The position numbers were made by a program, and so were the translations under genes. Positions 8,159-46,626 of a DNA stretch of 64,000 nt are shown here, piece after piece. Positions within the stretch are counted from its first letter, which is position 1; each line of letters starts with the position of its first letter. The DNA lies in the NCBI RefSeq assembly GCF_026222555.1, contig NZ_CP098511.1, forward strand, positions 3,205,501-3,269,500, written 5' to 3'. Source of the DNA: Aquimarina sp. ERC-38 (lineage in GTDB: Bacteria; Bacteroidota; Bacteroidia; Flavobacteriales; Flavobacteriaceae). The notes below the pieces were generated by a model. It saw nothing but the letters and a program-made list of their open reading frames with translations. It did not search any database and had not been told where the DNA came from.

Positions 8159-8414
8159 TTTTCAAAGGTAACTTTAAAGTTACTAATTTACATAATTTTG
8201 TATGATGTTAAGTTGTGAAGATGCTGAGAATCTAAGAAGTAAAGTTCCAAAGGTTCAAAGATTTTTTTAAGATATAATTGTTGAGAGTCTGGGGAAATAT
8301 ATTCTAAAGAGATTTTGTATTTGGGGTGAAAGTTATTTTGGTGGTATCAAGTATAAAGTCTTAAATTTTTTTACTACTTAAAGTTGAAATGTTTTTGAAG
8401 AAGAATTTTATTTA
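8159..8414. repeat. Spacer with one more CTAAGAA/TTCAAAG repeat copy
   Basis: The segment 8213-8275 repeats the 7243-7385 phrase almost word for word (GAGAATCTAAGAAGTAAAG, TTCCAAAGGTTCAAAGATTT). The remaining part up to the IS630 element has no recognised feature. No promoter for the toxin-antitoxin pair could be named with confidence. Confidence 0.5.
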
Positions 8415-8463
8415 AAGTCTAATATTTTATTACACAAAAAAGGTTTATCTTTGTTAAAAACAT

Positions 8464-8991
8464 ATGGGTAGATCTACACGTAAAGTGTCTGGTTATACAC
8501 CGGATCAAATAAAGGCACTTTTCAACAATGAGGATAAATACAAAATAGGTTTACGCTTGTATGCCGTTTACCAAGTTTCTTTAGGAAAGCCAAGCCGGGA
8601 ACTAGAGGCGTTGTACAACACAAGTTTCAAGCAAATTTTAAACTGGGTATCCAGGTTTGAAAAAGAAGGTATTGAAGGGCTAAAGGATAAAACAGGTAGA
8701 GGGCGCAAACCAAAGCTTACAGAGGATCAAAAAACGGAGTTGAGCCAATTAATTCTAGAGGCAACCCCGGAGGATTACGGGTACAACTCAGCTACCTGGA
8801 ACGGTCCTTTACTTATTGATTGGATTGAGAAACATATGGGGGTTAGCTACAAACGGGCTCAGATCTATAATATATTAAAGGGCCTTGGCTTTAGCTATCA
8901 GAAATCGAAAGGCATCTATCCGGAAGCTGATCTTGAGAAACAAGGGGAGTTCAAAGAGGAGTTAAAAAAAACTCTTGGAGAGTCCTGCTGA
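8464..8991 (+). CDS. IS630-family transposase, N-terminal frame
   Basis: 175 residues: winged helix-turn-helix DNA-binding part of an IS630/Tc1-type transposase, with an HTH_29-like segment (YAVYQVSLGKPSRELEALYN) and a second HTH region ending in the GLKDKTGRGRKPKLT linker and the helix pair GVSYKRAQIYNILKGLGFSYQ. The frame runs over an A8 tract (8964-8971) and stops at 8991, before the catalytic domain. A +1 (or -2) shift at the A-run joins it in frame to the second ORF, giving a normal transposase of about 345 residues. Confidence 0.88.
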   Translation: MGRSTRKVSGYTPDQIKALFNNEDKYKIGLRLYAVYQVSLGKPSRELEALYNTSFKQILNWVSRFEKEGIEGLKDKTGRGRKPKLTEDQKTELSQLILEATPEDYGYNSATWNGPLLIDWIEKHMGVSYKRAQIYNILKGLGFSYQKSKGIYPEADLEKQGEFKEELKKTLGESC

Positions 8992-13598: not shown

Positions 13599-14603
13599 TT
13601 AATTCCCCCAAATGCGATCCCATAATGAAGTCAATAACCCGGAAGCTTCACTCATATCCCGTTCTTTTTCTTCGGCTTTAAGAATTTCATCATCTTTATA
13701 AAATCGATATCCAAATACAAATTCAGGAGGTTTTTGTTTTATTCCTAAAACTCCGAAACGTAAATCGTTTAAGTATAATGTATTATCTTTTCTTTCAACG
13801 GCATACCACTGGTTCGTTAGTTGTTTTAAACGTTGAACAATGGGTTCATTGTTAACTGCTTGTAGCAATTGGTAATTTTTTGGGAACTCCGTAAAGGAAA
13901 TAGTTTCCCGAGTGTCGAAGAACGAGTAATATCCAATCAAAAAAGAATCTTCGGTTTTTACATTTGCCGTCCATAAAATAGTATTAAACGGAGTAGGGCG
14001 GGTTTGAATAGCATTATATGAAATGCCTTGTTTTTCTAATTCGTTTTTAAACTGTTTTGTAGCAAAAAACTGAATGACTAAAGTACTTAACAAATACGTA
14101 GTACTTAGACTAATTCCCAGCCAGTTAAGTTGAGAACGTTTAGGATGATTCCGCTTGTAAAACGATAGGGCAATTACAGAACCTAAAAAAGGTAATGTAT
14201 ATAGAGGGTCTACTACAAAGATACTATTGAATGCAATCCGATACTCAAAAGGCCAAAAAAGTTGGGTGCCCCAGGTGGTAAATGCATCGAGTAACGGATG
14301 TGTGAAAAGCCCCCAAAACATGAATTGAGTCCAATCCCACCAGGTTGCTTCTTGTCTTTTATAAATTTTGGCTACTGACCAACCAAAAACAGGGGCAAAT
14401 AGCAAACAAAATATAATAGAATGAGAGAATCCGCGGTGTAATTCGTTTGCGGTTACGTCATCTACAAGAAATTTGGTAAGTACATCCAGATCAGGAATCG
14501 TACCTGCAATGGCTCCCCAAAGTAAGGCTTTATTTCCTACTTTTTTACCTAAAACCGCTTCACCAACAGCCGCTCCTAAAACAATTTGTGTTAATGAATC
14601 CAT
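13599..14603 (-). CDS. YdjM-like membrane-bound metal-dependent hydrolase (DUF457 family)
   Basis: 334 residues from the ATG at 14603. A start at 14639 would overlap the preceding gene by 32 bp and adds a non-conserved basic stretch, so I chose MDSLTQIVLGAA, the usual beginning of the family. Conserved polar motifs in membrane surroundings: TIPDLD near residue 40, ELHRGFSHS near 57 and FTHPLLDAFTTWGTQLFWPF near 98-117. About four membrane segments lie in the first 180 residues; the last 150 are soluble. The family resembles the LexA-regulated E. coli YdjM, but the reaction is unknown. It lies 4 bp after a GNAT-like gene and is probably co-transcribed with it. Confidence 0.85.
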   Translation of the reverse strand: MDSLTQIVLGAAVGEAVLGKKVGNKALLWGAIAGTIPDLDVLTKFLVDDVTANELHRGFSHSIIFCLLFAPVFGWSVAKIYKRQEATWWDWTQFMFWGLFTHPLLDAFTTWGTQLFWPFEYRIAFNSIFVVDPLYTLPFLGSVIALSFYKRNHPKRSQLNWLGISLSTTYLLSTLVIQFFATKQFKNELEKQGISYNAIQTRPTPFNTILWTANVKTEDSFLIGYYSFFDTRETISFTEFPKNYQLLQAVNNEPIVQRLKQLTNQWYAVERKDNTLYLNDLRFGVLGIKQKPPEFVFGYRFYKDDEILKAEEKERDMSEASGLLTSLWDRIWGN

Positions 14604-14607
14604 ATGA

Positions 14608-15801
14608 TTATACTTGTTTAAACGGCGAACGTAATTCAAACTCGTTAGGCTTAATTAACCGGGTAAGGGGAGTTAAAACGGTATTGGATATTCCATTTAT
14701 ATGACGAATGTACAATTGCATGGGTATTGGAACGGCACCTACGCTACTTTTAATAGTTTCTGCGGTACGTCCAAAATTAATTTGTGCTTTGTGGTTTACT
14801 ATGGCTGCTTTAATGTATTCGTAAAGCATTCTTTGATACACCTGGTAAGCTTGATTTACCCGATAGTCCAGTCCGACATGACTTGTTTCCAGTATATTTT
14901 TATTTAAAAAATAAGTAGTAAAGCCTACTAAATGTTCTTCTAAAATATAACCGGTAAACATAAAAGATTCCGGAAGTGTCCTTTTAAATTCTATAAAAGA
15001 ATTAATCGACAAAGAACTCAATTTATAGTCGGCTTTATCCAATACATTTTGATATAAGGTGCTAATTTCTTTTTGATACTTAATAATTGCGGCAGTATCA
15101 AAGTCAACTAGCTTTATTTCGGATGATTTTTCAAAGGTTTTTTTAAGTCTTGACCGAAATTTGGTTCGAAGGGCGTTTTGATAATCCTCAAATATTTTCC
15201 AGGCTTCAGGTATCTGCATTATCATGACCTGATCTATTGTAATTGGCTTTAATTTAAAATTCTCCCATTTAATCCCCGAATTTTCACGGTTAGGAAAATC
15301 TTTAAAAAGTATAAAGGAAGGTTTTTTGTCTTTTTGATAGTTTTCTGTATCTAACAGATATTTAACTAAACCATTAAGAAAAGCTTGTTGCCAGGAGTTG
15401 GGAATAGTTTGAAATCCAAAAGACCCGGTGGCAAAAATATTACCACATATTAATAAACGGGTTTCCAGCTTTTGTGATACTATTTTCTTTAACCCATCAC
15501 CTATTTCACAAGGTAATGTGGTTTCTTCCAGTAATTTTCTATCGACTACAATGTTTTGAGTAAAGGCGATACCTATCACTTTATTATTATCGTATCCTAG
15601 ATAAAAATTAAAGGATAAGGTATTACTACCGGATTTTTGTAAAGCTTTTAAATATGGAAGATCTAGGAATACGGAAGCATATTTTGAAACCTCTTTCCAG
15701 TGACTTTCCGGAATCTCTTCAATGTTAGTATATCTTTTAATAGTGATACTTAAGTCATCAGTTTTATCAGAAGGTGGGATAGGACAAGATATTTTTAGCA
15801 A
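14608..15801 (-). CDS. GNAT-superfamily (FemX/BioF2-like) acyltransferase
   Basis: 397 residues. The second half contains a GNAT fold of the peptidoglycan-bridge/BioF2-like type: LRTKFRSRLKKTFEKSSEIKLV split by helices, then the acetyl-CoA-side strands SFMFTGYILEEHLVGFTTYF and QINFGRTAETIKSSVGAVPIPMQLYI. The first half is a degenerate second copy of the same fold (SHWKEVSKYASVFLDLPYLKAL). Cytosolic. The acceptor is unknown; relatives act on amino sugars or on amino-acid-linked molecules. It precedes the YdjM-like gene with a 4-bp gap. Confidence 0.75.
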   Translation of the reverse strand: MLKISCPIPPSDKTDDLSITIKRYTNIEEIPESHWKEVSKYASVFLDLPYLKALQKSGSNTLSFNFYLGYDNNKVIGIAFTQNIVVDRKLLEETTLPCEIGDGLKKIVSQKLETRLLICGNIFATGSFGFQTIPNSWQQAFLNGLVKYLLDTENYQKDKKPSFILFKDFPNRENSGIKWENFKLKPITIDQVMIMQIPEAWKIFEDYQNALRTKFRSRLKKTFEKSSEIKLVDFDTAAIIKYQKEISTLYQNVLDKADYKLSSLSINSFIEFKRTLPESFMFTGYILEEHLVGFTTYFLNKNILETSHVGLDYRVNQAYQVYQRMLYEYIKAAIVNHKAQINFGRTAETIKSSVGAVPIPMQLYIRHINGISNTVLTPLTRLIKPNEFELRSPFKQV

Positions 15802-35506: not shown

Positions 35507-35618
35507 TTTATTTTAAGATTAAATGTGAGATTAATTTACGCATTTTTATCATTAGTCGTAAAATGAGTTTTAAACTGAATCTAGGATGAGGTTTATAGCG
35601 ACTACAGTTGATTTTAAA

Positions 35619-36224
35619 CTAATCACATTTAGCATTCATATTGACTTCGGTAAGTTGATCCCAAATTGGATGATCATTATTCTGAGGGGATAGGTAAAAC
35701 CAAACCAAATATTTCCCTTCTTTTGAACAATAGTCAGTAGTTATTTTAGCATTTAGTTCGATAATCCCCTTTTTAAAAAACTCATCATATAGTTTAATAG
35801 ATCCTGTAAAGGTATTTTTATCTATTTGCTGAAAAGAGGATGTTGTCTTGGGGATTTTTTTAAAGAAATTTAAATTGGTAATTGCCCCGGTATTCATTAG
35901 TCCATCGAAATAGGTGTTGATGATGTTTTCTAATTTGGAAGTATCCAAATTCGGATTCTCCTGGATTATCCATAAGAAAACATATGAGAAATAATCTTCA
36001 CTGTCTTTTTTACCCCAACCCGGTGCAAATCGTATATGTTCTTCACCTTGATAGTCCAAATCTCCGGCAAATAGTAATGGAAATTCCAAAACTTCGCTAC
36101 GCCAATTATCTTCGGCTACCAGGACATTCTCAATCGTATTATGTAACCGAGAATACAGGTATGCAATACCTATGGTAATAATGATTACTACTACAAGTAA
36201 AACTTTAAGTATTTTTTTTAGCAT
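35619..36224 (-). CDS. Membrane-anchored uncharacterised protein
   Basis: 201 residues. One N-terminal membrane helix (ILKVLLVVVIIITIGIAYLYS, 5-25) after a basic MLKK, then a periplasmic domain of about 175 residues. The visible order is a helix with a tryptophan (LVAEDNWRSEVLEF), a polar region with APGWGKKDSEDYFSYVFLWII, and a beta-rich end with two cysteines (TTDYCSKEGKYLVWFYLSP; MNAKCD). I do not recognise the family. It carries the shared upstream element (36283-36325) 60 nt before its start and is the first such gene of the accessory block. Confidence 0.65.
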   Translation of the reverse strand: MLKKILKVLLVVVIIITIGIAYLYSRLHNTIENVLVAEDNWRSEVLEFPLLFAGDLDYQGEEHIRFAPGWGKKDSEDYFSYVFLWIIQENPNLDTSKLENIINTYFDGLMNTGAITNLNFFKKIPKTTSSFQQIDKNTFTGSIKLYDEFFKKGIIELNAKITTDYCSKEGKYLVWFYLSPQNNDHPIWDQLTEVNMNAKCD

Positions 36225-36282
36225 CTGCTGGTTGTGCTGATTATTTAAAATCTTAAATTGTGTATGGTATGTTTTTATAAAA

Positions 36283-36325
36283 CCAAGATATGAAATATAT
36301 TAATGGAGAAAAAATAGATTGTAAT
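36283..36325 (-). repeat. Shared upstream element, copy 1
   Basis: Plus-strand text CCAAGATATGAAATATATTA followed by ATGGAGAAAAAATAGATTG. It lies 60 nt upstream of the start at 36224. Read on the minus strand it contains TCATATCTTG, comparable to a weak TAnnTTTG -7 box, with TTTTTTC about 17 nt before it. The rest of the 322-bp gap 36225-36546 has no gene. Confidence 0.6.
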
Positions 36326-36546
36326 ACGGGTTTTTATTGAATGTTTTTACTTATCTGTGGAAGGAATACAGGTTATAAGTTGTAGAAACGTAGGGGTAGG
36401 GGTATGCACTAACCCTATATTATAATCAAAACTAATAATAGTGTTATGTATTTGCCTAAAATCTTTATACTAAGATTACAGCAATCCCTTGAAATGTACT
36501 TGGACTACTCATGGAATACTGGTTGATCTAAACAATGATTTTCGCA

Positions 36547-37035
36547 TTATTCCCCAATAATCATTCCTCCTTTCATTTCCTTTTCAGTAGGTTTTTCGAA
36601 CCAGTTTTCCATAAAGTCAAAATTATTTTTACTTACTTCAAATTCAAAAGTTTCTCCTTTCTCTGTATTCCTTTTTAAAACTCTTTGCAACCGGGTTTCT
36701 TTTGAAATATCTAAAAAATGCATTTTAAATGTATATCCATTTACCTTCGCAAACTTTCTAAATTTTTCGCGATGCTCAAATTTTGAAAACCCCAAATCCA
36801 AGATAGCATCTGCACCTGATTGTTCTAACTGCACGATTAAATCCATAATTATCTCTTCGGATCTTTCGATTCTTTCTAGAAACCATTCTAGTCCGTCCGT
36901 TATTTTTTTATCGTCTAGAAACAAAGTTTTGTTCCACTTATCAATCGAAAAAATAATACCTTTTGTTTCTTCCTTTAACTTAAGTGCATACGTAGTTTTT
37001 CCGGAACCCGTATTTCCAACGATTAAATGTATCAT
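36547..37035 (-). CDS. AAA_33-type P-loop kinase / ATP-binding protein
   Basis: 162 residues. Walker A is at the start, VGNTGSGKTTYA (7-18). A Walker B-like strand is ADAILDLGF near 75-83. A lid-like arginine helix is SKETRLQRVLKRN. The size and pattern match zeta-toxin/AAA_33 small-molecule kinases, some of which phosphorylate aminoglycosides or nucleosides; the substrate is unknown. A lone gene of the accessory block, with the shared upstream element 54 nt before its start. Confidence 0.85.
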   Translation of the reverse strand: MIHLIVGNTGSGKTTYALKLKEETKGIIFSIDKWNKTLFLDDKKITDGLEWFLERIERSEEIIMDLIVQLEQSGADAILDLGFSKFEHREKFRKFAKVNGYTFKMHFLDISKETRLQRVLKRNTEKGETFEFEVSKNNFDFMENWFEKPTEKEMKGGMIIGE

Positions 37036-37086
37036 TTTGGTTTTTGAATGTTTGTTTGTACGCTCACAGTTATGGCAGAACTTAGC

Positions 37087-37125
37087 AGGTTAATATATAA
37101 AATGTATTAACAAAGTAAGAATGCA
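37087..37125 (-). repeat. Shared upstream element, copy 2 (diverged)
   Basis: Plus-strand GGTTAATATATAAAATGTAT then TAACAAAGTAAGAATG. It aligns with AAGATATAAAATATCTTAAC at 38531 with several changes. It is about 54 nt upstream of the kinase start (37035). The remainder of the 321-bp gap 37036-37356 has no recognisable gene. Confidence 0.45.
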
Positions 37126-37356
37126 ATATCTTATATTTAGTTTTACAAATAGTAGCCAGTTCTTATTTAAGATTATTATTTATGTGGGTAGCAATGGATA
37201 AGAAGTGATTAGCATACTAGCCGTACATTCAAGTCCATAGGTAATTTAACAAGGCTTGTAACTGAATGAAATAGTAAATAAATACTATTTTAAATTTAGA
37301 CTATTATTTTATCACTTAGGCCTTTATTGTTCTAACTATTATACTGAAAATACTAC

Positions 37357-38469
37357 TTATTTTAACCTATTTAAAATGCTATTAGCCAATTCTTTAATTA
37401 TTTGATTAGCTTCAGGAAAACTAGAATTTGCTATAATGGAAATACCTATATTTTGTTCTGGATATATCATCAACCAGTTTTGACTACCATAGATTCCTCC
37501 ATGATGCTCCAAATGACTACTATTTTCATCTTGGATTATTTCCCAAAAATATCCAATCCAAATATTATCAACATCGTGAAATAATTTTGTGTGCGATATT
37601 TTCACATTAGAATTTTCACTATTTAGTTGCCATTTAATATAGTTTAATAAATCTTTTGAATTTGATTTGATTCTACCAGCTGCTCCCCATAATTTTATTG
37701 GTTTTTTAAAGTTTGGCATTAATTCGTTTCTATCATTATATCCATTAGCGAGTAATAATTCGTTATTCTTATCTAAATTAATGTACGTATTGGTCATTTG
37801 AGCGGGTATAAGTAGTTTTTCTTTAAGAATTTGCTCAAAGGATTTATCATATACTTTTTCTAAAATATATGCTATTAGATTTGGTGCTACATTAGAATAA
37901 CTATAAACTTCTCCAGGTTTTTGGTGTAATTCTAAGTATTTAACTTCTGATAATAGTTCTTCTTTTTTATATTCATTTAATTTCTTTTTAGCTTTATAAT
38001 AATTATTAGTAGTAGCCTTTTGATATAATTCAGAAATTCCTTTAATATTTAAGGGCAAACCACTAGTATGCGTGATTAGATGTTTTATTCGTACAGGTTC
38101 TCCATTAAATTCAAGGTTTTCATATTCTTTTCCCAATATATCATAAACCGAGCTTTCTAATTTAAGTTTCTGTTCGTTAACGGCACAAGCTACAAGGTAT
38201 CCGGTCATTGTTTTAGATACCGAAGCAATTTCATAAAGTGTTTTATTACTGGGCTTATTATTCAAATGTTTATCTAATTCACCATAATGTCCTAAAAAAC
38301 TTCTTTTCTTGTCAACTACAGCTATTGAAATAGCGTTAAATCGATGATCTTTTAGAACTTTCTCAACCTCGTTTTCAACAATGATAGATAACTCCTTTTT
38401 ATTAGATTGTGAATTACAACTCTGCGCGACAATTAAAATTAAACTATATACTATCCATTTGATTTTCAT
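37357..38469 (-). CDS. Serine hydrolase, beta-lactamase/PBP fold, lipoprotein
   Basis: 370 residues with a signal peptide and lipobox (LILIVAQSC, C18). Catalytic motifs of class C beta-lactamase relatives: S83-V-S-K86 (EIASVSKTMTG), Y191-S-N (YSYSNVA) and HHGG near 324 (replacing KTG). Such proteins are periplasmic esterases, D-aminopeptidases or muropeptide hydrolases; a true beta-lactamase is less likely. The shared upstream element lies 61 nt before the start (38529-38580). A second, longer serine hydrolase gene follows upstream on the same strand. Confidence 0.92.
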   Translation of the reverse strand: MKIKWIVYSLILIVAQSCNSQSNKKELSIIVENEVEKVLKDHRFNAISIAVVDKKRSFLGHYGELDKHLNNKPSNKTLYEIASVSKTMTGYLVACAVNEQKLKLESSVYDILGKEYENLEFNGEPVRIKHLITHTSGLPLNIKGISELYQKATTNNYYKAKKKLNEYKKEELLSEVKYLELHQKPGEVYSYSNVAPNLIAYILEKVYDKSFEQILKEKLLIPAQMTNTYINLDKNNELLLANGYNDRNELMPNFKKPIKLWGAAGRIKSNSKDLLNYIKWQLNSENSNVKISHTKLFHDVDNIWIGYFWEIIQDENSSHLEHHGGIYGSQNWLMIYPEQNIGISIIANSSFPEANQIIKELANSILNRLK

Positions 38470-38528
38470 TTTGACTCCTTGTTATACATTTCCTACAATG
38501 CGCAGAAGGTTATGTAAATTGTTATATA

Positions 38529-38580
38529 GCAAGATATAAAATATCTTAACGGTGTAAAAACGTAATATTTTAATTGTAAC
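38529..38580 (-). repeat. Shared upstream element, copy 3
   Basis: Plus-strand GCAAGATATAAAATATCTTA then ACGGTGTAAAAACGTAATATT. The core AAGATAT-AAA-ATATCTT is a perfect 7-bp hairpin. It is 61 nt upstream of the start at 38469. About 20 nt further, GACAAGTGGCAACCGCC (38583-38599) resembles GACAAGTAGCAATTGG beside copy 6. The 314-bp gap 38470-38783 holds nothing else recognisable. Confidence 0.65.
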
Positions 38581-38783
38581 TTGACAAGTGGCAACCGCCT
38601 CTTACATGTTTTTGCTAGGTTGAAAGAGGGGGGGCTGAAAAAGACTTTGAATAATTTTATATATGGTAGTTATTCGTTTAATTGCTAAATTTAGTAATAA
38701 ATCGCAGATAAAATGTGTAAGGGAGACTTTCATGAGGTAGTCTTGAAATAGCACTTAGTTATACACAGTAACAGATTTAGTTC

Positions 38784-40178
38784 TTAATCTATTTTCTCAA
38801 ATGCATTTACATTGCCTAAAGACATATACCTTATTTTTTTATCCTCACTTCTTTTAAATCCCATAATTCTTTTACCATCATAACTTTTAAATAATAAAGG
38901 TTCTACTTGATAAAATTTTCTACTGAATCCAGACAAAGTGCTATCGTTATTTGCAGAAAGTTCGTAAGTTTTTTGCTGTTCATAGTTAGAACATGTATAG
39001 CAGTCCGACATCCATTTATAATTTCCGGCAAATTCCGAAACATCTTCGTGCATTCTTTCAGGATTCGAATTAACTATGTTATCAGTTCCGAAATGCTTTA
39101 GAACCTGAGATATTACTTTTTTTCTCAACCCAGTATTTTCATGATGATGAACAACGAAAACCCCTAAATTAATCTCTGGAACTAAGGTCATAAACGAACT
39201 ATAGCCTAACATATCGCCTCCATGGTTGTAAGTTTTAAGACCAAATTCTTTTCTTTCATAAAATCCATATGCAAAACCATAAACTTCTGAATGTATAGAA
39301 AGTTGTTGCTTTTGCATTGACAAGGCTGATTCTGTATTTAAAATGGTGTCATTATTTAATTGACCGAGATTAAGATGCATTTGTAAATACCTTCCCATAT
39401 CTGCGGTAGTACTATTGATCGAGGAAGCAGGAAAAGTATGGTACCATTCCCAAGGTTGCGGAACATTCAGTCCATTTTGATATTCGTAACCTATGGATAA
39501 ATTACTTTCTTGATTTTTTGGTAATTCTATACTTGTCATTGTCATGTTAAGTGGATCCCAAATGTTTTTTTTCATAAAATCCTCAAGAGATAATCCACTA
39601 ATATCTTCTATTAATAATCCTGCAAGTGCAATTCCAAAAGTAGAATAGGCAGAGACAACCCCGGATTTCCTTATTCTTTTCAATTTACCATCAAGAAAAG
39701 TCTTTAATGGTAGTTGTTGGTTTTTGTTGTAAACAACTCTACCCCTTAATTCATCAAATCCCGCACTATGGGTCATAAGATGCGAAGCAGTTACACTTTC
39801 TTTAAATGCTGTTGGAACTTTTACTGATTTTAAATACTGGTTAACATCTGTATGCAAATCAATTAAGTTTCTATCTTTAAGTTGAAGAAGTGCAGTAACG
39901 GTAAAGGTTTTTGTTATCGAACCAATTCTAAAAATTGTAGAATCGGGATCAATAGGTTTGAGATTTTTACCTAAGGTTGTATATCCATAACCTTTTTTGA
40001 GTAATATTTTTCCGTCTTTTACAATGATATAAGAAGCTCCAGGAATTTGCTCCGACTCCATTGTATAAGTTATCAAAGAATCTAGTTTAATTTCTAAATC
40101 TTTAATAGTAATTTTTTCTGCTTGCGAACAAACAATAGAAGTTATTAGTATGAATATTATTGAGCAATAAATTCTCAT
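38784..40178 (-). CDS. Serine hydrolase, beta-lactamase/PBP fold, secreted
   Basis: 464 residues with signal peptide (MRIYCSIIFILITSIVCSQA). Motifs: S87-I-T-K90 (FRIGSITKTFT), Y178-S-T (VSAYSTFG, where YxN is usual) and HGG in TYNHGGDMLGYSS. After the catalytic domain of about 360 residues comes a beta-rich C-terminal extension of about 90 residues (FAGNYKWMSDCYTCSNYEQQKTYEL), as in many penicillin-binding-protein-like esterases. Substrate unknown. No shared upstream element is seen before it. Confidence 0.92.
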   Translation of the reverse strand: MRIYCSIIFILITSIVCSQAEKITIKDLEIKLDSLITYTMESEQIPGASYIIVKDGKILLKKGYGYTTLGKNLKPIDPDSTIFRIGSITKTFTVTALLQLKDRNLIDLHTDVNQYLKSVKVPTAFKESVTASHLMTHSAGFDELRGRVVYNKNQQLPLKTFLDGKLKRIRKSGVVSAYSTFGIALAGLLIEDISGLSLEDFMKKNIWDPLNMTMTSIELPKNQESNLSIGYEYQNGLNVPQPWEWYHTFPASSINSTTADMGRYLQMHLNLGQLNNDTILNTESALSMQKQQLSIHSEVYGFAYGFYERKEFGLKTYNHGGDMLGYSSFMTLVPEINLGVFVVHHHENTGLRKKVISQVLKHFGTDNIVNSNPERMHEDVSEFAGNYKWMSDCYTCSNYEQQKTYELSANNDSTLSGFSRKFYQVEPLLFKSYDGKRIMGFKRSEDKKIRYMSLGNVNAFEKID

Positions 40179-40586
40179 TCTTTTGATTTTAATTGAAGTA
40201 AAGATAAAAGTTTATAAGTCATTTCGATGGTAAAGTATTGAATGAAACAAAGAGAAAAGCATTTTGAAATTTCAACGGATTAATTCTGAAGAATTACTAA
40301 ATTTTTGGTTAAAATAAACTAGCGTAAAAGCTATAGTCAAGAAAAACATCAGTATGAAATTTACATTTCGTAACATTTCTATATGTTGTTCAACCTTGTT
40401 TAGAAGATTAAAGTTATTGCGTTCATGTCGAGTTTCTTCTATTGACAACTATATGAATTTATATTTATTCATTCCAAATTTAAATACCATCTCGCTTAAT
40501 AAAAAAACATCAATAAACTTAGTAGAATTTTTTAAGGCAAAACTATTTCAAAATTCCCATAATACTTCTCTTATTCAATAGAATCA
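40179..40586. other. Intergenic region without credible gene
   Basis: A 408-bp gap between two minus-strand genes. A plus-strand frame of 75 codons (40354-40581) is open, but it has no family resemblance and an odd composition, and I do not call it. No repeat, promoter or terminator was recognised. Confidence 0.5.
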
Positions 40587-41030
40587 CTATTGCGTTAAAG
40601 GAATGGTTAATATGTGATTTATATTTGAAACACTACAGTTTCCGGAATAAATTGATCCTGAATATTCATGATGATGCCACGGAAAGATATTTTTAAAAGT
40701 CGGAAGATTACTTTTTAATTGAGTGTTTACGATCCCTGGTGCTAAATCTACAATATCAGGAAATACACAGCCTAGTAGTATTGCGGAAATTAAAACCCTA
40801 TATTTCTTTTGAACGAAATAAATGATTGTTGCAATTAGAAATAAACTGATGAAAAAATCTAATTTTGAATTTATAGGATAGCAGTGTGGAGTGTAGTCCA
40901 AAATCCCGTGTGATATTAGTCCAAGTACAAATCCGGAGGATACTTTTCCTATTTTAAATGAATTTATCTCCAAATGGCTAACAGAAGCGATAATCCCTGC
41001 ACCAATAGAAATATGGAATATTATATTCAT
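40587..41030 (-). CDS. Small multi-pass membrane protein with histidine motifs
   Basis: 147 residues with about four membrane segments (2-18, 30-45, 58-76, 82-97). Polar motifs at membrane edges, SHGILDYTPHCYP near 40-52 and FPDIVDLAPG near 90-99, plus WHHHEYSGS near 120, resemble the SH…D / PD…D pattern of the YdjM/zinc-phospholipase-like membrane hydrolases. The likeness is inferred from motif order only. Lone gene in the accessory block. Confidence 0.65.
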   Translation of the reverse strand: MNIIFHISIGAGIIASVSHLEINSFKIGKVSSGFVLGLISHGILDYTPHCYPINSKLDFFISLFLIATIIYFVQKKYRVLISAILLGCVFPDIVDLAPGIVNTQLKSNLPTFKNIFPWHHHEYSGSIYSGNCSVSNINHILTIPLTQ

Positions 41031-41200
41031 TCGTTATAAATCGTATATTATGGTTCTATCAAAGGTAACGACGAGTATTATCTGGAAAATTTTTAAAACT
41101 AGTTATCTACCTATTAGTTGTATCCATATTCCTACTATCCCAATAGTTAAACATAAGGGTGTAAACCATTTTGAATCAGCTTTTGCAAATTGGATATTCT

Positions 41201-41533
41201 TTATTTTTTAAACAATCCCACATATCTAAAATCCCCAATCGCTCTTATCAAAAAAATAAATGGAATGATCCAATACCCATAATTTGCTACCCAGTTCGGG
41301 AGATCAATAGTGGTAAGTCCGGATTTTACAAAGTAGAACAATCCGAAAGATACTAAAACAAGAGCTACCACCAAAGTTGCCAATGCTGGTATAGGAGATG
41401 GATTTGTCTGATCATCTTTGGTCGGAATAACCTTATCCAATCCCCATTTTCCGCCAAAAAGCCAATAAAAATGAATAAGCCCTAATACCATAAAAATAAT
41501 GGACAAAAATATGGATAATAGCGTTGTTGTCAT
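41201..41533 (-). CDS. DUF3995-family membrane protein
   Basis: 110 residues with three membrane segments: 3-25, 49-68 and 85-104. Pattern features of DUF3995: HFYWLFGGKWGLDKVIPTK after the first helix, a second helix ATLVVALVLVSFGLFYFV, and the C-terminal IRAIGDFRYVGLFKK. Function unknown. A typical single-gene passenger of accessory regions. Confidence 0.85.
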   Translation of the reverse strand: MTTTLLSIFLSIIFMVLGLIHFYWLFGGKWGLDKVIPTKDDQTNPSPIPALATLVVALVLVSFGLFYFVKSGLTTIDLPNWVANYGYWIIPFIFLIRAIGDFRYVGLFKK

Positions 41534-41627
41534 ATTTGGGCAGTTGAAAAATAAGTATACTTATTCATTTATTTTAACCTGAATAAGCAATTGCCTGGTC
41601 ATTAATCATATAAGTTGTTTGCTATTT

Positions 41628-42140
41628 TTATAACTCACCAATTTTTTCAAATTCAAACGGAATTTCGATTTCTGAATTTGAAACTATTGCCTTTATGTTG
41701 TCTCCGCTTTTCCAGTATTTAATTTTATTAGGAAAGTCAATTTCGTTATTTACACAGATAAATTGGCTTTCGTTATGTTCTGTCATTTCAAAAATAATAC
41801 TTTCTTTTTCTTCAGGAACTTTTACAAATAAGTTCCATTTTCCCTTGCTATTTATGAACCTTATCCTTTCTTGTTTTATGGTATCTTTATTCTGCATGGT
41901 AAATCCAATCCCGGTATATTCAGTTTTACTATTTTTCGTCCAGTTTTCAAATGTTTCTTTTCCTTCATCATCATTTAATCTTTTCCATTTTCCTACAAGC
42001 CAATCAAAATTGGTGGTTTCTTGCTGCTTTTCTACTTGTTTAATTTCTACCTGTTGCTTTTCAGATTTTATGTTGTCTTTTTTGTGATTATTACAGGAAA
42101 TAATTAAAATTCCGATTAGAATAGTGATTATGTTTCTCAT
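41628..42140 (-). CDS. DUF6265-family lipoprotein
   Basis: 170 residues. Lipobox ILIGILIISC with C16, followed by a charged linker (KKDNIKSEKQQVEIKQVEKQQ). The DUF6265 domain starts at FDWLVGKWKRLNDDEGKETFENWTK and continues with beta strands (YTGIGFTM; QERIRFINSKGKWNLFVKV; IFEMTEHNESQFICVN). Lipocalin-like fold inferred. Function unknown. The shared upstream element (42213-42255) lies 73 nt before the start. Confidence 0.88.
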   Translation of the reverse strand: MRNIITILIGILIISCNNHKKDNIKSEKQQVEIKQVEKQQETTNFDWLVGKWKRLNDDEGKETFENWTKNSKTEYTGIGFTMQNKDTIKQERIRFINSKGKWNLFVKVPEEKESIIFEMTEHNESQFICVNNEIDFPNKIKYWKSGDNIKAIVSNSEIEIPFEFEKIGEL

Positions 42141-42212
42141 AATATGTGTTTTATATGATATTGGCTTTATATGTTGTTTATACGAGCAGATGAATATAAG
42201 GTGTTTTTTGAA

Positions 42213-42255
42213 AACAATATATAGAATAGCCTAGTGGAGTAAAAGAGTATGTTAT
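42213..42255 (-). repeat. Shared upstream element, copy 4
   Basis: Plus-strand AACAATATATAGAATAGCCT then AGTGGAGTAAAAGAGTATG. It matches copy 1 (ATATATTAATGGAGAAAAAA) and, with the adjacent TGTTTTTTGAAAA, copy 6. It lies 73 nt upstream of the start at 42140. Confidence 0.5.
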
Positions 42256-42314
42256 TTTAAATACAGCTAAATAAGTAACCTATAGATTACACTTTTTAAT
42301 TTAAGCGGCTTCAT

Positions 42315-42794
42315 TCATAATTCTCTTTGCATAATAAGGGATTTATCCGTTTCAACTTTCACTTCAAACCCTAATTTGCTATAAAGTCTAAATGCCGGAT
42401 TTCTTTTATCAACGCTTAATGAGATTGATTTTATGTTCAATTCTTGGTATAATTTGATTATTTCTTCAATCAGTTTGGTTCCAATTCCTTTGTTTCGGTA
42501 AGATACTTTTACTGCAATACTTAGTTCAGGCGTTTTGGAATTTATAAATCCGTAACCTTTATCTTTTTCGTTAAAAAGTCTGCCCCAACAAGCTCCTACC
42601 AAAGTTTTGTTTTCAATAGCAACTAAACACACATCGGTCTTTTTCAAACCAAAATCAGTAATATATTTTGCTAAATTGGGTTTTTTAATGATAGACTTAG
42701 GTAATTGCGGTTGTCCGTCTTCTACAAATATGGCTTCGTAAAGCATCTCCTTTAAAAATTCGATCTCATTATCTGCTATTTTGCGAATGATCAA
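42315..42794 (-). CDS. GNAT-family N-acetyltransferase
   Basis: 159 residues. N-terminal IRKIADNEIEFLKEMLYEAIF is the usual GNAT beginning. The acetyl-CoA loop is KVSYRNKGIGTKLIEEIIKLYQ (R-N-K-G-I-G), and the last motif is SLSVDKRNPAFRLYSKLGFEVK. Cytosolic; acceptor unknown, small molecules or antibiotics being typical. Lone gene of the accessory block without the shared upstream element. Confidence 0.93.
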   Translation of the reverse strand: MIIRKIADNEIEFLKEMLYEAIFVEDGQPQLPKSIIKKPNLAKYITDFGLKKTDVCLVAIENKTLVGACWGRLFNEKDKGYGFINSKTPELSIAVKVSYRNKGIGTKLIEEIIKLYQELNIKSISLSVDKRNPAFRLYSKLGFEVKVETDKSLIMQREL

Positions 42795-43435
42795 TGTGGT
42801 ATGTTTAAGAATTATCTAAACTAGAAATCAATTGCTGTCGTTTAGGTTGACTATTTAACTGAACATAAAATTTTATTTTTTCAATAAAAGCCAAATTAAA
42901 TTTGGCGAACTAAAAATACATAAGGAAATTTCAATCGATTAAAAGACGCGTTATATTACTATACCGGTCAACCAAATTTTTTTATTTCACCGCTACAATT
43001 CTAATTCTTTTATAATCCGCAAACCATTTACTATTAATAAGACATTTGTCCTTTATTTTTTCCTGTACTTCATTTTTAATTTCTTCTTGATGATTCTCCA
43101 AAACTCCAATAAAAAAGCTTTCTGCGAACATAGAAAGCCAATCTTTGATCCCAGATTTTTCATCCGCGAGTTCAGTGGGTCGGTCATAATGTTCTGCGGA
43201 AAGAACTTTAAATCCACCTGATTCAAGCGCAGTAGCATACTCCCCAATGGAAGGAAAATACCATAAGTCCAAATTAGCTTGGTTGTTATAACCTCTTATT
43301 TTTAGTGAGTTTCGCAATTCAGTAATTAGGGTCTGTACGTTTCCCTTACCCCCAAATTCAAGAACAACTTTTCCATTGGTTCTTAAATTATTGTACATAC
43401 ATTCTATAGAACCCTTAACATCTTTTACCCAATGT

Positions 43436-45153
43436 GCTTGTTGCACAAGATAGTAAAAAGCTAACATTGGGTTAATATGTTTAGTTCATTGATTTACTAT
43501 CTTGAAGTATGCAAGGCAAGAAGATATATCAGGAGAAGTTGTTCAATAGTTTCCAGCTTAGTGACCGTGTTGGCAAAGGTAATTTCTACCGCAGGCTTAA
43601 AGAGGCTTTGGACCTGGACTATTTATACAATCTTACTTCAAAGTTTTATGGTTCTAGCGGTCAAAAAAGTATTGATCCAGTGGTTTTCTTCAAACTCTGT
43701 TTGGTAGGTTATCTGGAGAATATCATAAGTGACCGCAAGCTTATTGAACACTGTAGTATGCGACTGGATATTCTTTATTTTTTAGGGTATGATATTGATG
43801 AAGAACTTCCTTGGCATTCGACTATCTCGAGAACACGTCAGTTATTTCCGGAGTCCATATTTGAAGAGGTCTTTACAAAAGTACTTGAGTTGTGTATGGA
43901 AAAAGGTATGGTCAGTGGTCACACCCAAGCTATTGACAGCGCCCCTGTTAAAGCTAATGCATCAATGGATAGTTTAGAGCTTAAAGTCCCAAACCAAGAT
44001 CTGGATGCCCACCTGGCAGAAGTACGCCATATCAGTGAAAGGGATAAACAAACCTTCAGAAAAGCCAAGCAGGATAAATCCAGTAAAGACCAAAGAATCA
44101 TTACTGCTAATGAGAAAGAACTGCAAGGAATCACTTCCAGGAACAAAAGATGGTCAAAAGATCAGGATCAGCGCCCGGGAGCTGGAAACAAAGGAAGTCG
44201 TTATACGAGTAATAAAACTCATTACAGTCCCACAGATCCGGATGCAAGGATCAGTGTTAAGCCAGGTAAGGCCAGAAAACTGAACTATTTAAGCCAACTC
44301 AGCGTAGATACAAACAACCACGTCATTACCGATATAAAAGCTTACCATGCAGACGGCAAGGATAACCAGCAACTACCTGATATTGTAAAGCGCTTACAAA
44401 GGCGGTTATGGAAGCAAGGTATGTTTTGGGAAAATTGTGTAGCTGATACCGGTTATAGTAGTGGAGAGAACTATGCATTTCTGGAAAGTCAAGGTATAAA
44501 AAGTTTTATACCGCCTCACGGCACCTATAAGGGTGGTCCGGATGGTTTTCAGTATATAGAAACAGAAGATCATTATCTGTGTCCCAAAGGAAACGTAATC
44601 CCATTTACCAAAGAGTTTTTAGATTATAGAACCAAAACAAGAAAGAAGGAATACAGAGCCAGTAAAAAGATATGTACCGGTTGTCCACTGCGTAAAGAAT
44701 GCCTAAAGAGCAGTCAGGAGAAACGAATAACGGTTACTTATTACCGGGCGGAATATGAGCGTAACATAGCTAGAGTAAACAGTAAACAGGGGCGCTATAT
44801 GAAAGCCAAACGGCAGAGTACTGTGGAGCCGGTATTTGGGACTCTTACCCAATTTATGGGACTACGAAAAATTAATACTATTGGGATCCAGCAAGCAAAC
44901 AAGATTATGCACATGGCGGCTATTGCTTATAACTCAAAGAAATACCTGAAATTCACCAAGAAAAACCCAATAAGTAAAGTGGGAGTCTGTTTAGCCCATA
45001 ATTTTTCGATTAAAATACCTTTTAAGGCGTAAAATAAGCAATTTAGCGCTAGTTGTGTTAAGGTAGTTATGAATATATCCCTCTAGAAAATCAGGGCTTA
45101 AACTCAAGATTATTGATTGTCCTTTGACTTTTTAGGGGCTTGTGCAACGGTTA
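43436..45153 (+). mobile_element. IS1182-family insertion sequence with 7-bp target duplication
   Basis: 1,718 bp. Inverted ends: GTTGCACAAG then TAAAAAG from 43439 on the left, and the same read inward from the right end (GTTGCACAAG, CCCC, TAAAAAG). Target duplication CCAATGT at 43429-43435 and 45154-45160. One transposase gene, intact. The left end also contains an inner AACATTGGG (43464-43472), which resembles the duplication by chance or by end preference. Inserted within a methyltransferase gene. Confidence 0.95.
43509..45032 (+). CDS. IS1182-family transposase
   Basis: 507 residues, single frame. N-terminal DUF772 domain (FFKLCLVGYLENIISDRKLIEHCSMRLDILYFLGYDIDE), then a DDE_Tnp_1 core. 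Catalytic residues D143 (AIDSAPVKAN), D313 (VADTGYSSGENY) and E440 (RQSTVEPVFGTLTQFMGL). A cysteine-rich region (ICTGCPLRKECL, 388-399) is typical of the family. The gene is full length and undamaged, so the element is probably active. Confidence 0.95.
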   Translation: MQGKKIYQEKLFNSFQLSDRVGKGNFYRRLKEALDLDYLYNLTSKFYGSSGQKSIDPVVFFKLCLVGYLENIISDRKLIEHCSMRLDILYFLGYDIDEELPWHSTISRTRQLFPESIFEEVFTKVLELCMEKGMVSGHTQAIDSAPVKANASMDSLELKVPNQDLDAHLAEVRHISERDKQTFRKAKQDKSSKDQRIITANEKELQGITSRNKRWSKDQDQRPGAGNKGSRYTSNKTHYSPTDPDARISVKPGKARKLNYLSQLSVDTNNHVITDIKAYHADGKDNQQLPDIVKRLQRRLWKQGMFWENCVADTGYSSGENYAFLESQGIKSFIPPHGTYKGGPDGFQYIETEDHYLCPKGNVIPFTKEFLDYRTKTRKKEYRASKKICTGCPLRKECLKSSQEKRITVTYYRAEYERNIARVNSKQGRYMKAKRQSTVEPVFGTLTQFMGLRKINTIGIQQANKIMHMAAIAYNSKKYLKFTKKNPISKVGVCLAHNFSIKIPFKA

Positions 45154-45522
45154 CCAATGTAAAGTTGCATTTGAAAAAATCGAATCAAACTTTTTATCAA
45201 ACTTAAAATTACTGGCGTCTGCCACTTGAAACTCAATATTAGTAAACTTTGATTTGGCATCCATGATCATTTCAGCCGATTTATCAATTCCAATCACTTC
45301 TTTAGCGAATTCGCTTATCTTGTAAGTCAATTGTCCCGATCCACAGCCTATATCCAAAATTCTTTCATTTTGTTTTGGATCCAACAAGTTTACTAAACTC
45401 TCTCCATATTGATAAACAAAGGAATGTTTTTTATTATAAAGATCAGGCTTCCATTTTGTTGCCATAGTAGTTGTTTTCAGTTGTTTACTTAGGTGCGAGT
45501 GAATATATTACGCTTATACAAA

Positions 45523-45630
45523 ACAAGATATAAAATATTATAAAAAAGTAGAAAATTGCTATTCTACTTACAGTTCGATAAATAGCAACTATCTATTGTT
45601 CATTTTCCGCTCCCGGCGGTGGTGAGTAAG
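45523..45630 (-). repeat. Shared upstream element, copy 5 (long form)
   Basis: Aligns with 46227-46345 over about 105 bp: ACAAGATATAAAATATTATA, AAAAAGTAGAAAATTGCTAT, TCTACTTACAGTTCGATAAA, TAGCAACTATCTATTGTTC, then GCTCCCGGCGGTGGTGAGTA. It lies 59 nt upstream of the methyltransferase start (45465). The two long copies flank the GNAT gene 45712-46164 in direct orientation. Confidence 0.75.
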
Positions 45631-45711
45631 AAGAATCTTACGTATAAAACGTTTTGGTTTAGAAGTAATTAGCTGTGCTTTATATATTGTAAAAGCAACT
45701 GGCTTTTATCA

Positions 45712-46164
45712 TTAAAAATGCATTTTCATTCCTTCATAAGTTGCTTTAAATCCTAAATCTTCGTAAAATTTAATTGCTTTCTGTCTTTTTTTGTCAGTTG
45801 TTAATTGTAATAAATGAGCATTTCTTTCTATTGCTCGGTTAATTGCCCATTCAAACATCTTTTTTCCAATTCCAAATCCCCTCTTGTCTTTTCTAATTCT
45901 AACCGCTTCAATTTGTGCTCGAATTCTGCCACGATAAGTAAGATATTGAATAAATGACAATTGTAAAGTTCCTATAATTTCAAAATTTTCATTTTCTAAA
46001 ATTATAAGTTCCTGATTTGGGTCAGCCTGGATATTTTCAAATGCAATAAGATATTCAGTCGGTAATGGTATTTGATAATTCTCTCTTGTTTTTCCAAGTT
46101 CATCGTCTGCAATCATTTCCACAATTTTGGCAACATCAGTTTCGGTTACTTTTCTAAATTTCAT
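45712..46164 (-). CDS. GNAT-family N-acetyltransferase
   Basis: 150 residues. MKFRKVTETDVAKIVEMIADDELGKTR is a standard GNAT start. The acetyl-CoA loop is IRKDKRGFGIGKKMFEWAINRAIE, and the end is LTTDKKRQKAIKFYEDLGFKATYEGMKMHF. Close to the family with an R-x-x-G-x-G/A loop and the L-x-T motif near the end. Acceptor unknown. It is bracketed by two direct copies of the long shared element (45523-45630 and 46227-46345), as a cassette would be. Confidence 0.94.
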   Translation of the reverse strand: MKFRKVTETDVAKIVEMIADDELGKTRENYQIPLPTEYLIAFENIQADPNQELIILENENFEIIGTLQLSFIQYLTYRGRIRAQIEAVRIRKDKRGFGIGKKMFEWAINRAIERNAHLLQLTTDKKRQKAIKFYEDLGFKATYEGMKMHF

Positions 46165-46226
46165 CTCTAGTTCGTTTTTTTGAATTCGTTGCTAATATGA
46201 GGTCGACCATGGCATGTTTTTTCAAA

Positions 46227-46345
46227 GCAAGATATAAAATATCCTAAAAAAGTATAAAATTACTATTCTGCTTACCGTTTGGATAAATAGCAACCATCTA
46301 TCGTTCGTTTTCTGCTCTTGACGGTGACAAGTAGCAATTGGTAGT
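46227..46345 (-). repeat. Shared upstream element, copy 6 (long form)
   Basis: GCAAGATATAAAATATCCTA, AAAAAGTATAAAATTACTAT, TCTGCTTACCGTTTGGATAA, ATAGCAACCATCTATCGTTC, then GACGGTGACAAGTAGCAATTG. It lies 64 nt upstream of the GNAT start (46164). After it, from 46346 to 46626, the spacer upstream of parE has no gene. It contains AATAACCCAGTAACCCAATA and CTACCTAATGCCTTCTACCT, words of the TTGCCT/AATAACTAA repeat family. Confidence 0.75.
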
Positions 46346-46626
46346 GAGACGCTCGCGCATCAAGCCCATCCGGAGCATGGCAAAGTTACAAAAGCACAGA
46401 AAATTTTAGATTCATCGATACTTTTCGTTTTAAAAGCTTAATAACCCAGTAACCCAATAACTTAATACAAAATAACAAAGACCTCTACCTAATGCCTTCT
46501 ACCTACCCAACTAAAAAACGAACATATCAACAATATTTTACGTACAATTGTTAATTACTTTGTAAAGTAGGTGTTTTATAAGTCTGTTTGTCCTCTTATA
46601 TTAGAGCAAAGAAGAGTCCCTGAATT

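Follow-up and report, generated by a model that had tools for sequence, protein, structure and literature searches.

Integrons are mostly described together with IntI integrases. An integron cassette has a 5' end that complements the R'' side of its own attC site, so that the circular form closes a folded site. The stretch of DNA analyzed here, 64,000 nt from the genome of Aquimarina sp. ERC-38 (hereafter, the window), contains a repeated sequence element ahead of six genes on its minus strand. This repeated text is probably a worn remnant of an integron-type cassette without a gene, approximately 180-206 nt long. The element is also found elsewhere in the ERC-38 genome and in Aquimarina sp. 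U1-2, where it alternates with gene cassettes.

Several described systems are close to this one. Integron cassettes without an open reading frame (ORF) that have promoter activity are described from Treponema and an oral metagenome (PMC6557892). As far as that account goes, both these and the Aquimarina element are gene-less cassettes in an integron-type system; the latter differs in being a single family of 180-206 nt, with an A|TT joint, that sits between nearly all of the U1-2 gene cassettes and whose promoter activity is putative. The sedentary chromosomal integrons of Vibrio are described as having array-internal, cassette-borne promoters (PMC2945992; PMC8618304). The U1-2 array resembles these integrons in that a long run of unrelated, same-strand genes lies by a tyrosine recombinase, with folded attC-type sites and with cassette ends complementary to their own attC. 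It differs from these accounts of Vibrio in that its recombinase is without the IntI insertion, and in that its gene-less cassette varies little, in contrast to the diverse attC-like sites of its gene cassettes. Clusters of attC sites lacking an integrase are known as CALIN (PMC9024848). The window block resembles such a recombinase-less array, with no match to PF00589 in the window (there are 12 elsewhere in this genome), but its attC-like sites are too decayed for the simple scanner used here. Cassettes of the Delta-attI type, which bear a piece of the integron's integration side (PMC12901181), are also similar, whereas the repeated unit described here has a cassette architecture of its own.

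Bacteroidota are counted among the integron-bearing phyla (PMC9668308, PMC8618304). The IntegronFinder 2.0 report states that earlier only integrases without cassettes were found in Bacteroidetes, and lists a complete integron in Salinibacter (PMC9024848). One survey, as it describes its selection, retained only integrases with the IntI insertion (PMC2426708). Among the papers listed from the open PMC literature, taken at the level of titles and the starts of abstracts and with subscription papers and preprints outside this scope, nothing was found on Flavobacteriaceae integrons of this anatomy or on arrays that alternate one gene-less cassette with almost every gene cassette.

The six window copies are recovered independently of their discovery. 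A profile built from 14 genomic copies outside the window finds exactly six places in the 64 kb and nothing else: 46386-46196 (E = 1e-30), 45632-45493 (4e-17), 38610-38498 (5e-11), 37240-37063 (2e-6), 42280-42195 (1.6e-4), and 36322-36263 (4e-4). These are the six places at which the preliminary description had noted the repeat on the plus strand, and in the minus-strand reading each stands before a gene of that strand. The control with shuffled sequence gave 0 matches in 40 dinucleotide shuffles of the window, so the observation stands. That description had named copies 2 and 4 as the diverged ones; the profile ranks copies 1 and 4 as the weakest. All window copies are worn, copy 6 before the GNAT gene least of all.

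The 19-nt repeat first noticed is the last hairpin (AAGATAT..ATATCTT) of a folded element of 180-206 nt. In gene orientation the full element reads GTTCAAGCCCATAC..GTATGGGCTTGAATGTGCGGGCGGCT..(long GC-rich hairpin)..AAGATATTTCATATCTTG..AGCCGCCCGCRCATT. The ERC-38 genome is 4.43 Mb in size, and its copies lie in several clusters. With an iterated profile, the fetched stretches of this genome yield 23 copies (17 outside the window and 6 inside), all oriented with the following gene, plus 13 short opposite-strand matches to the palindrome at the element's start. In the 75 kb scanned of U1-2, there are 21 full copies in the same orientation over 32 kb and one partial match of 47 nt. Taken together, 43 of these 44 copies have an ORF of at least 50 aa downstream on the same strand. 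A constant distance to the gene had been proposed, and a start codon does lie within 60 nt of the element's end in 38/44 copies, with starts picked mechanically. The copies within a cluster are on the same strand, each before an unrelated gene. By similarity search, the element is present in 2 of 52 Aquimarina genomes and in 2 of 56 relatives. When the U1-2 version was used as the query against 299 genomes of the family, it was found in one, namely ERC-38; the best two candidates per genome were scored in these family-wide DNA searches, and absence elsewhere holds at that sensitivity.

Individual copies show peculiarities of their own. The copy at 126105-125921 of the U1-2 contig (L062:10921-11105) has a nearly perfect snap-back palindrome of ~38 bp, as if its own hairpin had been copied. 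The first-hairpin loop of L024:8529-8734 is inverted relative to the other copies. The copy at 122036-121848 of the U1-2 contig is a hybrid: its left half belongs to the array type, and its right half, which has the better promoter match, to the type found beside the recombinase. At about 114018-113769 of the same contig, a very short unit of the array, in which no ORF of 50 aa starts within 260 nt of the element, is possibly another gene-less cassette.

A check for attC-like stems had been suggested, and the element does fold, with its ends pairing with adjacent halves of one internal segment. Across 25 copies (13 from this genome and 12 of the 21 from U1-2; 24 distinct), 91.6% of the cells of a 47-pair structure are paired and 15/47 pairs are changed on both sides, while 0/500 shuffles reach either value and slid versions reach a maximum of 38.8% paired; the consensus of these same sequences was the basis for the structure, which gives it an advantage over slid versions, and the relatedness of the copies inflates the shuffle test. 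A third hairpin, around a -7-like box and outside the counted 47 pairs, differs in sequence between the two genomes, and pairing is possible in both. The cassette hallmark was measured directly on the element's own end-to-end joint. The reverse complement of this joint lies inside the element with a mean of 20.6 of 22 matching bases (range, 16-22; 33 copies), compared to a mean of 11.4 and a maximum of 16 in shuffles, so that the lowest real copy equals the highest shuffle. These 33 copies comprise all 21 full U1-2 copies, 12 of the 17 non-window copies of this genome, and none of the six in the window. The side that pairs with the joint has the matching AAT in most copies. The ends of a transposon remnant would pair with one another; because the complement of the joint lies within the element instead, it is read as a gene-less cassette.

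The point of insertion is best seen in U1-2, where a second, variable imperfect palindrome ending in GTT precedes the elements. Such attC-like sites were sought with a simple search made here for AAC, a stem, and GTT (threshold, 11; strands not distinguished), which misses 3 of 20 expected U1-2 sites, including 111335, which is shorter than the minimum length, and reports some spurious ones. The 33.2-kb U1-2 array has 23 such sites, compared to 0, 2, and 0 when shuffled three times. Setting aside the copy on the recombinase side, 17 of the remaining 20 U1-2 copies have as their first three bases the GTT of a scanner site, and the recombinase-side copy is also at a G|TT crossover. The joints follow the pattern G|TTC...ACA|TTR, in which the element separates the G of the crossover from its TT. 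Two sites within the array are plain, and another cassette follows directly.

The clearest evidence comes from joints that are without the element. For one cassette gene of U1-2, three relatives from as many other genera read ..CG|TTGTGCTTCATTAT.. straight behind an attC-like site, and the U1-2 counterpart reads ..CG|[element]|TTGTGCTTCATGAT.., a near-identical cassette start behind the element. The GNAT joint of the window is ..CTCATA|TTAGCAAC.., the cassette's 5' end (46165..46195, minus strand) lying directly behind the element's final A. In G131, the gene next to a recombinase of the same family encodes a GNAT relative (74% identity over 50 aa, at the end of a contig), which begins G|TTAGCAAC... 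In L097, from another family, the GNAT relative beside a recombinase starts GTTAGCAAC... without the element. The gene cassettes of U1-2 also match their own attC when the element is skipped: the bases that follow it agree at a mean of 8.0 of 11 positions (25 rows, 18 of which reach at least 8), whereas wrong partners give 4.9 and the element's 5' end gives 4.6, and 0/10000 permutations were as good. All rows were kept in this test, although most of the low ones appear to come from sites that are spurious or were wrongly assigned. In plain arrays of four other genera, 37 cassette/site pairs, with sites filtered on the two bases before GTT, include 14 that are perfect over 9 bases, and again 0/10000 permutations were as good. 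Because cassettes of other genera start at the same joint without the element, and U1-2 cassettes match their own attC across it, the sequences let the element be read as a separate unit placed between gene cassettes. The preliminary description had offered two possibilities. Its gene-cassette alternative is borne out by the integron-type joint in U1-2, the folding, and the cassette hallmark; its alternative of a leader module, in which each gene carries its own copy, holds less well, given the joints of other genera, where related cassettes start at the same joint without the element.

The U1-2 array also has a candidate for the enzyme. A diverging tyrosine recombinase of 276 aa starts ~105 nt from the first element copy, and a recombinase with an adjacent integration site is seen, by eye, in U1-2, Lacinutrix sp. 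MedPE-SW, and G131. The best PDB matches of the U1-2 protein are XerA/XerC-like proteins and XerD. IntI4 aligns to it in two stretches that leave IntI4 residues 182-219 unmatched. The integron-integrase model TIGR02249 gives 181.9 bits versus a cut-off of 265, and four relatives, including those of Lacinutrix and G131, are also below this cut-off. Two of the five pass NCBIfam NF040815, which has 'integron integrase' in its product name, so annotation is not wholly blind to such recombinases. At least 5311 relatives are found at E<=1e-40 (among 7999 scored), and the names among the 120 listed are generic (tyrosine-type recombinase, integrase, XerD). Thirty recombinase loci contain 12 attC-like sites, distributed over 10 of the loci, versus 0 or 1 in five shuffles. 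Relatives of the recombinase are present in 39/52 Aquimarina genomes at E<=1e-30. The ERC-38 genome has 12 PF00589 matches (tyrosine recombinases), and its only relative of the U1-2 recombinase is broken into three separate frames near one cluster. We infer that the window block is an old, decayed array without a recombinase of its own.

A region resembling the U1-2 integration site was observed in three copies without an adjoining recombinase, at L021:17956-18220, L024 about 8300-8529, and L024 about 14600-14829. One of these lies behind a tRNA-Pro gene and two behind apparent tRNA 3'-end remnants (by eye; ARAGORN finds no tRNA in L024).

From these parts, a mechanism can be proposed. The circular element would form an attC-like hairpin, its two ends pairing with the neighboring halves of the internal segment. 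A tyrosine recombinase like that of the U1-2 array would move it as a folded single strand, and an element circle with its A|TT joint would enter a G|TT joint. Exchange of a single strand could allow the element to multiply while staying put, and in this way to fill nearly every joint.

Several observations weigh against this reading, in addition to the limits on the structure test given above. The two strongest covarying pairs separate the two genomes and may reflect few events. The element's joint is A|TT and not the G|TT of other cassettes (32 of 33 copies have A before TT). In the folded consensus, the outer stem runs through without a break, whereas a textbook attC has unpaired spacers; a GTT/AAC core with such spacers was not found in the element's own attC, where the core is ATT. 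Both the scanner and the choice of start codons are simple and were made here. In this genome, the scanner is not clearly above shuffles in the window and most other stretches: it reports 2 sites in the window (shuffles 0, 2, 1), 3 in L021 (0, 2, 1), 2 in L023 (1, 2, 2), 5 in L024 (0, 2, 0), 2 in L025 (3, 0, 0), 6 in L026 (1, 0, 1), and 1 in L064 (1, 0, 0). Only 1 of the 23 copies in this genome begins at the GTT of a scanner site, and more attC-like text ahead of a few copies is seen by eye only. Among the relatives of cassette genes, a fourth (L152) has a plain joint with a different cassette start, the L160 relative shows no joint ahead of the gene, and a GNAT relative on an Acidobacteria contig (L147, 50%) is without such a joint. 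The U1-2 recombinase is without the IntI-specific insertion, and its putative role in moving cassettes is taken from its position and the anatomy of the sites. Finally, the nearly strict alternation would require a copying step.

Two alternatives survive best, and each appears improbable to a similar degree. In the first, the element is a non-autonomous transposon similar to a miniature inverted-repeat transposable element (MITE), which targets attC joints with a 2-bp TT duplication and is moved by another transposase rather than by the integron recombinase. The arrangement G-TT-[CGAG..ACA]-TT-R is compatible with such a duplication, a transposon would naturally spread to many sites by copying, and elements that target attC are known (IS1111-attC elements and group IIC-attC introns); an insertion sequence of this genome also enters attC-like sites. 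However, the ends of the element, TTCGAGTCC and GCCCGCACA, are not mutually complementary, unlike terminal inverted repeats. Each end instead pairs with one internal segment that is the complement of the end-to-end joint, which is the hallmark of a cassette. No longer parent with the same ends was found in 52 Aquimarina genomes by an indirect search, which covered the best 15 candidates in the two positive genomes.

According to the second, a promoter segment linked to attI reached the cassette joints as copies, through either aberrant attI/attC events or homologous recombination, and has since been a passive 5' end of composite cassettes. The recombinase-side copy has the lowest profile score of the full copies and is one of the two best promoter matches, the hybrid copy at 122036-121848 joins a recombinase-side right half to an array-type left half, and cassette ends derived from attI have been described (PMC12901181). 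This explanation has to contend with gene cassettes that have matching ends of their own, so that each would have needed the segment at exactly the same base, and with the full cassette architecture of the element itself.

A conserved RNA leader common to the genes, that is, a regulatory 5' untranslated region, is very unlikely. The structure is conserved and lies upstream of start codons, but a transcript started from the -7-like box, which is close to the 3' end, would leave out most of the structure; both ends of the element map onto the recombination joint, and relatives of a cassette gene occur elsewhere without the element. Chance similarity in AT-rich DNA, to which the weakness of window copies 1 and 4 taken alone might point, is refuted by the empty shuffles and by the independent profile, which finds exactly the six places.

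If the element is a gene-less cassette, it may also bear on the expression of the gene behind it. Bacteroidota promoters have the consensus TTTG at -33 and TANNTTTG at -7, about 19-21 nt apart. The -7 box proposed in the preliminary description is retained, as TATCTTG or TATTTTG, in 40/44 copies, but the upstream half is not general, because TTG occurs 17-21 nt before the box in only 2 of 44. An earlier, looser pattern had given 43 and 2 of 44; the box was misplaced in some copies, hence the stricter count. The recombinase-side copy reads TTTG-N19-TATCTTG. The two copies with TTG at the -33 spacing are this one and one hybrid, and this restriction counts against a start signal in every copy. 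A promoter in the recombinase-side and hybrid copies is plausible from the sequence. The suggestion that, through its conserved TATCTTG/TATTTTG box, the element acts as a start signal for the following gene has somewhat less than an even chance of being correct; the recombinase-side copy is the most plausible case. The signal might work on the folded single strand, because the hairpin of the box is kept while its sequence differs between the genomes.

The genes behind the window copies are all read on the minus strand. Copy 6 (46196..46386), covered by a 196-nt query that matches other genomic copies, precedes the cassette gene for a GNAT acetyltransferase (45712..46164; Pfam PF00583, 4.7e-15). 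Copy 5 (45493..45632) stands ahead of a methyltransferase whose 5' part (45151..45465; PF13847, 8.5e-17) is interrupted by an insertion sequence; an ORF across the insertion sequence (42982..43467), with no Pfam match alone, is likely the 3' part by its position. The strongly decayed copy 4 (42186..42280) is followed by a 170-aa ORF (41628..42140), the supposed DUF6265 lipoprotein, with no Pfam match at 1e-3. Only the 3' part of copy 3 is present (38497..38612); it retains a perfect AAGATAT..ATATCTT hairpin and the GCGCATT end, and precedes a beta-lactamase-family serine hydrolase (37357..38469; PF00144, 3.1e-45). The decayed copy 2 (37060..37244), which reaches 5e-23 in an iterated profile that includes it, lies before a P-loop kinase of the AAA_33 family (36547..37035; PF13671, 1.5e-18). 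Copy 1 is also decayed, with only its 3' part (36263..36320), and precedes a 201-aa ORF (35619..36224) with no Pfam match. The labels first given to the kinase, hydrolase, methyltransferase, and GNAT genes are supported by Pfam, while 'DUF6265 lipoprotein' and membrane protein find no Pfam match at 1e-3.

The insertion sequence encodes a 507-aa transposase with DUF772 and DDE domains (43509..45032, plus strand, in the window). Six copies are present in this genome: the one in the window and those in L021, L023, L024, L025, and L026. Apart from the window copy, which splits the methyltransferase, all lie, by eye, inside attC-like sites at the R'' side (5 of 6). Four of the six are bordered by 5-bp flanks that match each other, as a target duplication would leave. 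This insertion sequence may target attC sites.

With one U1-2 attC type as the query, matches at E<=1e-6 were found in 214/299 Flavobacteriaceae genomes and 177/236 genera. The 30 best loci contain 35 attC matches that were read; GTT is kept in 32, and the element stands behind none. Eleven stretches of other genomes, chosen for holding such an attC site or recombinase, have 16, 9, 9, and 7 attC-like sites in four and 0 to 5 in the other seven, with 0 or 1 in shuffles. In U1-2, unrelated genes on one strand alternate with folded attC-type sites, an arrangement that the scanner does not bring out clearly in the window. Repeat self-comparison of 30 short recombinase loci (<=3.8 kb) and 28 others (3.7 to 20.8 kb) gave little outside U1-2, the plain attC-like sites being short and diverged. 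Many of the listed attC matches are 88-96% identical (e.g., L219-L222), which, together with the matches in 177/236 genera, suggests a large cassette pool common to Flavobacteriaceae.

The wider system merits attention more than the window itself. If the neighboring recombinase acts on these sites, the accepted need for the IntI insertion becomes testable. The repeated gene-less cassette is a natural experiment on the readout of stored genes and on the multiplication of cassette sites. The broadest proposal is a tentative one and, taken as a whole, rather unlikely: Flavobacteriaceae would share a family-wide integron system whose recombinase lacks the IntI insertion, and each stored gene in a few Aquimarina would receive a start signal from a gene-less cassette that multiplies itself and has come to lie at nearly every joint. 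If true, the array would be a directly readable library, and not a silent store that relies on one front promoter.

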